A stretch of 43,158 bases of DNA, from positions 1 to 43,158 of the forward strand of contig CACHFI010000007.1 in NCBI GenBank assembly GCA_902579065.1. The letters run 5' to 3'. The position numbers and the translations under genes were made by a program. This document shows positions 20,279-22,045 of this stretch, piece after piece (positions within the stretch are counted from its first letter, which is position 1; every line of letters starts with the position of its first letter). The notes under the pieces are model-generated. The model was given only the letters and a program-made list of their open reading frames with translations, ran no database searches and was not told the origin of the DNA. Source of the stretch: an uncultured Bacteroidota bacterium (lineage in GTDB: Bacteria > Bacteroidota > Bacteroidia > Flavobacteriales > BACL11).

Positions 20279-20286
20279 TATATTTG
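20279..20286 (+). promoter_or_regulatory. Putative -7 element TATATTTG for the small-protein operon
   Basis: Exact TAnnTTTG match 22 bp upstream of ATG 20309; nearest TTTG is 24 nt upstream (suboptimal). Confidence 0.4.
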
Positions 20287-20308: not shown

Positions 20309-20506
20309 ATGAAAAACTACAAAGAATTTTTAATAGTTTATTATCCGATTATCATTGCTTTCATTGCAATGATGTATTCTATTTTCTTGGGTCTTAGTGG
20401 TGATTTTGAATCTGCTCAATATTCAGCTCATTGGCCTGCAACAATTCTTCTATTTGCAATTGCAATAAGACAAAGAAGAAGTAATTTTTATAACAAAAAC
20501 GATTAA
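20309..20506 (+). CDS. small membrane protein, 65 aa, unknown function
   Basis: MKNYKEFLIVYYPIIIAFIAMMYSIFLGLSGDFESAQYSAHWPATILLFAIAIRQRRSNFYNKND; two hydrophobic stretches, first gene of a tight cluster. Confidence 0.65.
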   Translation: MKNYKEFLIVYYPIIIAFIAMMYSIFLGLSGDFESAQYSAHWPATILLFAIAIRQRRSNFYNKND

Positions 20507-20508
20507 TT

Positions 20509-20649
20509 ATGCTATCTCCTTCAATGTTTATTATTGGTGCTGTAATTTTTATCCTATATGTAGCTGGTCTAATATATATGATAAATTGGGGGCATAATTC
20601 ACAAAAAAGAAAAATGCAAAACGATCCTGAAATAAAAAATAAAAAATAA
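20509..20649 (+). CDS. small single-TM protein, 46 aa, unknown function
   Basis: MLSPSMFIIGAVIFILYVAGLIYMINWGHNSQKRKMQNDPEIKNKK; 2 nt after upstream stop and TAATG overlap with downstream ORF; not in supplied track. Confidence 0.65.
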   Translation: MLSPSMFIIGAVIFILYVAGLIYMINWGHNSQKRKMQNDPEIKNKK

Positions 20650-20825
20650 TGTTTGGATTATTCAAAAAAAAGACAGGAAGAGAAAAACTCCTCGATCAAT
20701 ACAAAAAATTAAAAGAAGAAGCTTTTATTCTTTCAAAAACTAATAGAACTGAAAGTGATAAGCTTGAACAAGAGGCTTATGAAATTTCAAAAAAAATAGA
20801 TCTTTTAGATCAACAAAAATCTTGA
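20649..20825 (+). CDS. Lacal_2735-like small protein, 58 aa
   Basis: MFGLFKKKTGREKLLDQYKKLKEEAFILSKTNRTESDKLEQEAYEISKKIDLLDQQKS; 'MFGLFKKK...L...Y..L..EA..LS..NR..SD' pattern of the flavobacterial Lacal_2735 family; not in supplied track. Confidence 0.75.
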   Translation: MFGLFKKKTGREKLLDQYKKLKEEAFILSKTNRTESDKLEQEAYEISKKIDLLDQQKS

Positions 20826-21691
20826 TCAAATTAATTGATAAATGTCATAAACTTTTATTCTCTGAAAAGAATTTAAAGTTATTTGAAACAGCTATTCTTT
20901 TTTTAGCTGTTACAGGATTTATTGCGCATTTATTGTTAATCTATTTAAACATAAATTACGAGTTAGATTATCTAAGTAAGCTAGATAATTTATTTACAAA
21001 TCCAATATCAGCGCTTTACACCCCCTTTTCCTTTATTCTTATTTATGAGGTTTTTTTACTTATTTATTATCTACCTCGATCATTTACAACCTCAATTCGA
21101 AAAGAATATGAAATCATATCTCTAATTATGATAAGGAAAGTATTTGAAGATATTCCAAACTTAAATACTGAATCAGGAATTTTTAACACTGAAAGTCTTA
21201 ATTTAATTTATAACCTTCTTGGAATACTAATTATATATTATTTAATTTTTCTATTTAAAAAAACAATTAAAATTATTCCTAAAAGAAAAGACACGAAAGA
21301 TTTGTCAAAATTTATAGCATATAAAAAAGCATTAAGTATTGTTTTAGTACCCATTTTAATAATTCTATGCTTTTCAAATCTAATTAGCTGGTCGCAAAAA
21401 TTATTCATAAATGAGTATTTCACTCAAAATATTAATTCTATTTTCTTTATTGACTTTTTTACTATTCTAATTTTAGTTGATGTATTTATTCTTCTTATTT
21501 CTTTTGGATACACAGAAAGATATGCTCAAATAATTAGAAATACTGGTTTTATAATTTCAACTATTTTATTGCGATTATCATTTGGTGTAAGAGATTTGTC
21601 AAGCGTAATTCTTCTAATTAGCGGAGTAGTCTTTGGTTTGATAATTTTAAAAATTTATCAGCTCACCGAAACAAATCTAGATTCAAAATAA
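20822..21691 (+). CDS. uncharacterised polytopic membrane protein, 289 aa
   Basis: Multiple TM segments; 'YEVFLLIYYLPRSFTTSIRKEYEIISLIMIRKVFEDI' motif; TTG start overlaps the upstream TGA (TTGA). Confidence 0.7.
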   Translation: MIKLIDKCHKLLFSEKNLKLFETAILFLAVTGFIAHLLLIYLNINYELDYLSKLDNLFTNPISALYTPFSFILIYEVFLLIYYLPRSFTTSIRKEYEIISLIMIRKVFEDIPNLNTESGIFNTESLNLIYNLLGILIIYYLIFLFKKTIKIIPKRKDTKDLSKFIAYKKALSIVLVPILIILCFSNLISWSQKLFINEYFTQNINSIFFIDFFTILILVDVFILLISFGYTERYAQIIRNTGFIISTILLRLSFGVRDLSSVILLISGVVFGLIILKIYQLTETNLDSK

Positions 21692-21919
21692 ATAATAGAT
21701 TTTATTTCCAAGTATGTATCCAGTACTTAAGACAAGAGGATAAAATACAAATAGCCATAAGCAATTTAACAAACCAACCTCCTTCATCACAGGAAATCCT
21801 CTCTTAAATAATTCAGGGCCAAAATCATACCATGTGCTTAATCCAAATTTTCCAACTACTAAATTAGCTACAATAGCAATTAATAAAATACAAAGTCCAA
21901 TTAAATATAACCTTATCAT
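21683..21919 (-). CDS. small membrane protein, 78 aa, unknown function
   Basis: MIRLYLIGLCILLIAIVANLVVGKFGLSTWYDFGPELFKRGFPVMKEVGLLNCLWLFVFYPLVLSTGYILGNKIYYLF. Confidence 0.7.
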   Translation of the reverse strand: MIRLYLIGLCILLIAIVANLVVGKFGLSTWYDFGPELFKRGFPVMKEVGLLNCLWLFVFYPLVLSTGYILGNKIYYLF

Positions 21920-21922
21920 GTT

Positions 21923-22045
21923 TTACTTTTTGTAGTTCCAGAACAATGGTAATATCGCAATAAATAAAAGAAAAAATAATTTTTTTGTAGCAACACCGAT
22001 AAACACTATGGCGAGAGCTATTAATACGAGTATCCAATTTTTCAT
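21923..22045 (-). CDS. candidate 40-aa membrane microprotein
   Basis: MKNWILVLIALAIVFIGVATKKLFFLLFIAILPLFWNYKK; fills the gap between the SDR and the 78-aa ORF with 3-8 nt spacers; not in supplied track. Confidence 0.55.
   Translation of the reverse strand: MKNWILVLIALAIVFIGVATKKLFFLLFIAILPLFWNYKK

Follow-up and report, generated by a model that had tools for sequence, protein, structure and literature searches.

Phototrophy based on rhodopsin is common across the sunlit ocean, and blh is a retinal synthesis gene. Apart from chromophore genes, we know of few partner proteins of rhodopsin. Kumagai et al. (2018, PMC5932025) describe 43 orthologue groups that are biased to rhodopsin-bearing Flavobacteriia, and the main text of that paper lists blh, DUF2237 and a photolyase cluster as members, alongside many groups of unknown function. 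The gene described here, called D below, shares the same kind of bias, as does a microprotein gene, A, and in Winogradskyella D itself lies in a photolyase cluster. While the main text of Kumagai et al. deals with Flavobacteriia, the link of D to rhodopsin reaches Balneolota, Saprospiraceae and Cytophagales-type genomes. Two described membrane protein families can be compared with D: microbial rhodopsin (PF01036) and the Blh/BCD dioxygenases (PF15461) are multi-TM proteins like D and are its neighbours in several genomes, but D matches neither family.

The stretch of DNA analysed, here called the window, is a 43-kb contig (43,158 nucleotides) of the Flavobacteriales MAG G000, which is 61.6% complete. 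It contains four ORFs on the forward strand that start 218 nt after an upstream tRNA-Ser. As read from the ORFs, A (20309-20506) encodes 65 aa, from an ATG start to a TAA stop, and is followed after a gap of 2 nt by B (20509-20649, 46 aa, ATG start). C (20649-20825, 58 aa) is joined to B through a TAATG overlap, and D (20822-21691, 289 aa) begins with a TTG that overlaps the stop of C as TTGA. A first-pass annotation of this DNA had given the same four ORFs and junctions, and they are exactly as it stated; B and C were missing from the ORF track supplied with it, probably because of a length cut-off. The TTG start of D is credible, since in an orthologue from the same genus the aligned start codon is ATG. 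Directly in the sequence, a candidate Bacteroidetes-type -7 element, TATATTTG (TAnnTTTG), can be read on the forward strand at 20279-20286, 22 nt before the start of A; it is only suggestive because the -33 TTG is not at the canonical spacing. Downstream, on the reverse strand, a gene for a 78-aa DUF7672 protein (21683-21919; PF24717, 91 bits) is convergent with D, with overlapping 3' ends, and a 40-aa one-TM ORF (21923-22045) is convergent with D as well. Both are kept in the related genomes G003 and G004.

The ordered quartet A-B-C-D was found in the window's genome, G003 and G004 only, all of genus g1, and the closest genome with a name that carries it is 'Flavobacteriales bacterium isolate SP54' (L067). 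The arrangement is more than chance, as the order recurs in G003 and G004. Within the genus, dN/dS by the NG86 method is 0.06-0.08 for A, 0.10-0.39 for B and 0.08-0.16 for D. For C the synonymous sites are saturated and dS is not computable, with dN at 0.22-0.27 and protein identity at 61-65%. A, B and D are thus under purifying selection, and C is conserved as a protein. C is also the only one of the four that resembles a named family, as the first-pass annotation had said: it matches NF033487 (Lacal_2735) with 70.1 bits against a cut-off of 32, over positions 1-53 of 54, and Pfam DUF6435 (PF20027) with 28 against 26.9. Both curated cut-offs are exceeded over the full length, and no difference from the family was found. 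A literature search on Lacal_2735 or DUF6435 returned no paper. Elsewhere this 58-aa soluble protein is encoded by a dispersed solitary gene, unlinked to A, B or D, and its place in the window's unit is probably incidental.

The absence of a named family for A, B and D, and the polytopic nature of D, were likewise noted in the first reading and are borne out by our searches. At least 510 loci of the D family were confirmed, and the family has no DUF name. It ranges over Flavobacteriales, Cytophagales-type, Saprospiraceae, Sphingobacteriaceae and Balneolaceae genomes (Bacteroidota/Balneolota), and outside the quartet genomes D is a solitary gene. No convincing Pfam or NCBIfam match was found for any member of a 54-row alignment. 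The AlphaFold2 model built on this alignment (pLDDT 81.9, pTM 0.78) has eight predicted TM helices, at residues 15-46, 61-83, 88-113, 123-151, 159-196, 204-230, 234-255 and 259-287. Foldseek gave no PDB or BFVD fold match at E<=0.001 (best TM score ~0.3 with E>0.7, most below 0.3), and no sequence match to solved structures was found. The invariant residues include H36, E76, K94, R105, D110, K168, D220, R239, N240 and R251, many of them inside predicted helices; the charged ones within predicted TM helices are H36, E76, R105, D220, R239 and R251. No enzyme motif could be recognised.

Several identities considered for D were rejected. A voltage-sensor-like or other known fold found no PDB or viral match at the above threshold. 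An internal duplication, with two halves that look alike by eye, received an hhalign probability of 0.5%, inside the range of column-shuffled controls. D is not a microbial rhodopsin, given the lack of a PF01036 match, the eight predicted TM helices and rhodopsin fold matches with TM scores of at most 0.3. Nor is it a Blh/BCD dioxygenase: there is no PF15461 match in the 54 members and H36 is the single invariant histidine. One such histidine is too few for the Blh or CrtZ type of di-iron carotenoid oxygenase, so D is not one.

The main feature of the locus, the tie between rhodopsin and the genes D and A, lies outside the window. In an even draw of 295 genomes of the class, with PF01036 for rhodopsin and PF15461 for BCD/Blh, both over cut-off, rhodopsin was found in 61 genomes, BCD/Blh in 50 and D in 33 besides the window's. 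Rhodopsin is carried by 30 of these 33, and in the other three (G129, G223 and G255) the D matches are weak or partial. When only strong D matches (E<1e-50) are counted, rhodopsin is present in 27/27 non-window genomes against 34/267 others (p 1e-21; this and the other Fisher values for co-occurrence ignore phylogeny below genus level, and shared sunlit habitat may contribute to them). The strong-D genomes with rhodopsin span 19 genera in 13 families, with a genus-level hypergeometric p of 1e-12. As a control from the same operon, C occurs with rhodopsin in 23/53 genomes, giving an odds ratio of 4, compared with 74 for D. In an independent set of genomes selected for D alone, rhodopsin is present in 44/50, including Balneolaceae, Saprospiraceae, Sphingobacteriaceae and cultured Winogradskyella, Rhodohalobacter and Yeosuana; the six without it are all MAGs (L067, L072, L087, L114, L119 and L128). 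Among 100 relatives, rhodopsin was found in 14 of the 16 D genomes outside the quartet, and both exceptions are incomplete. The distribution of D is thus almost nested inside that of microbial rhodopsin. The reverse does not hold: 31 of the 61 rhodopsin genomes in the class draw are without D, and D is therefore not required for pumping. Among rhodopsin genomes, D is more frequent in those with blh (27/47) than in those without (3/14; p 0.03), and a role as a stand-in for a missing Blh was rejected on these counts.

Rhodopsin, blh, photolyase and carotenoid genes are recurrent neighbours of D. Rhodopsin lies within 3.3 kb of D in 12/80 loci, compared with ~0.5 expected over 6-kb flanks, and blh within the same distance in 13/80. 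On the D tree, rhodopsin or blh is found near D in at least five separate lineages (L083; the L098 group; L120; L130, with only blh; and L142/L144), and the class draw contains three further D-rhodopsin linkages (G221, G311 and G317). In L083, for example, D is the third gene after rhodopsin and blh on one strand, with 51 nt between blh and D; in G026 the order on the strand is the same, but two small ORFs stand between blh and D. In two Winogradskyella loci (L116 and L131) D is flanked by photolyase-type genes at distances of 8-57 nt or with slightly overlapping ends, and elsewhere it is beside a CrtA-like gene (L088/L097) or a CrtI-like oxidoreductase (L138), all of these products being named by eye.

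The microproteins A and B, neither of which has a Pfam family, form a mobile pair that is present without D in many genomes. A probably has two TM helices and a positively charged C-terminus (RQRR), and its family falls into two sequence types, AQYSAHWP..RQRR and EGIFVGIWVPSIL; B has one predicted TM helix and a charged tail. B follows or overlaps A in nearly all loci of the A family, and outside the quartet genus the two are still paired, by a 2-nt gap or a short overlap, among unrelated neighbours. In other families, solitary A genes of the FIGIWVPSIL type (L053, L054, L057 and L058) have next to them one or two small membrane proteins that are DoxX-like and ~115 aa long (named by eye). Synonymous divergence of A is far below that of D, with a dS of 0.34 between the window and L004 for A and of 1.9 between the window and L034, from the same genome as L004, for D. 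High expression is not supported as the cause, as codon adaptation is an ordinary 0.72; the A-B pair may have been transferred, or an additional constraint may act at the nucleotide level.

The link of A-B to rhodopsin is partial and weaker than that of D. In the class draw A is found with rhodopsin in 15/18 genomes (odds ratio 25), and in 6/9 of those that are D-negative (p 1e-4). Among relatives the count is 15/22, and G015, which is 99% complete, has A without rhodopsin; it is this less strict tie within the family that makes the link partial. A lies near D in 19/80 D loci, in at least four arrangements, such as divergent by 67-131 nt, 1.1-2 kb away, or beside a CrtA-like gene. The pair adjoins blh-rhodopsin in G008 and G012, and in G045, G050 and G051 ~3 kb separates it from rhodopsin; these five may represent one ancestral arrangement. 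A further observation concerns one marine lineage (L072-L086, L093 and L094), where A-B and D point away from each other with 67-131 nt between them and the block is conserved with pirin-like, FMN-reductase-like, PhzF-like and riboflavin-synthase-like genes (named by eye). Another is that A is commoner in rhodopsin genomes without detectable Blh (7/14) than in those with it (8/47; p 0.03), possibly a tie to another retinal source, or chance.

The window's own genus is the exception. Rhodopsin and blh were found in none of the seven g1 genomes, and the genus seems to lack both. Completeness of these genomes is 53-88%, and incompleteness alone would leave all seven without rhodopsin with a probability of ~3e-4, and the three quartet genomes with one of ~5%. 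Incompleteness hardly explains seven misses, so D has been kept in genomes that probably have no rhodopsin. Either the pump has been lost and D kept, or D has a light-related task that outlives the pump.

What D does can be read in more than one way. The first-pass annotation proposed that the four products could be a small membrane complex or transporter with microprotein subunits, and held that this would fail if the small ORFs were not conserved or were under no purifying selection (dN/dS near 1), or if the order was not conserved. The ORFs are conserved and selection is purifying, and the overlapping junctions recur in three genomes of one genus, but the order is lost outside it, C and D stand alone in most genomes, and A-B occurs without D in many. 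With gene order unconserved beyond the genus, a four-part complex is unsupported by it, and we consider one dedicated assembly of A, B, C and D very improbable. The best explanation of the window is a genus-specific transcription unit that unites the A-B pair, a stray C gene and D, which are separate elsewhere. Our preferred reading is that D, and probably A-B, are members of the rhodopsin or light gene set of these bacteria, with D in an ion-handling role, and we regard it as an evenly balanced proposition. D would then be an ion- or proton-handling membrane protein alongside the light-driven pump, the least certain step of this scheme, and A-B its small membrane partners. Ion handling is proposed because of the invariant charged residues in predicted TM helices and the lack of a recognised enzyme motif; speculatively, D might couple or relieve the light-driven gradient. 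A more specific version sees D as an accessory membrane protein dedicated to rhodopsin phototrophy in Bacteroidota and Balneolota, where it would couple or regulate the light-driven proton gradient with the A-B microproteins as small partners. This version is tentative, and we hold it to be rather doubtful.

The main and strongest rival to membership in the rhodopsin gene set is co-selection by habitat or regulon. On this view surface-water Bacteroidota would use D and A-B as membrane proteins of light or UV stress in general, functionally untied to the pump, and these would occur together with rhodopsin since sunlit niches favour both. The place of D inside a photolyase operon in Winogradskyella fits this, as does the main-text account of Kumagai et al. 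(2018, PMC5932025) that photolyases are enriched and clustered in rhodopsin-bearing Flavobacteriia, and D is kept in the window's genus, which seems to lack rhodopsin and has a photolyase gene in two of its three quartet genomes. It accounts less easily for an association so much tighter for D than for C, or for D standing directly beside rhodopsin-blh, sometimes co-directional, in several lineages; we see co-selection as possible, though on the lower side. Alternatively, D could handle the chromophore, serving rhodopsin as a protein that carries, chaperones or modifies retinal or carotenoids. The adjacent blh genes, the CrtA-like and CrtI-like neighbours and the higher frequency of D in rhodopsin genomes with blh all point this way, but D has no Pfam match and H36 is its sole invariant histidine, and we think such a role unlikely.

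D is not named in the main text of Kumagai et al. (2018, PMC5932025), and may stand nameless among the 43 groups in its supplementary tables. A literature search for a rhodopsin-linked membrane protein of unknown function found no paper that names one. What appears to be new is that D and A-B are identified and their linkage described, together with the reach beyond Flavobacteriia. Being conserved, nearly nested in the distribution of rhodopsin and without a DUF name, D is a tangible candidate for something further that the pump depends on or supplies. If the more specific version above, with D as a dedicated accessory protein, is true, D, with A-B, would add a part so far undescribed to one of the main light-harvesting systems of the ocean.
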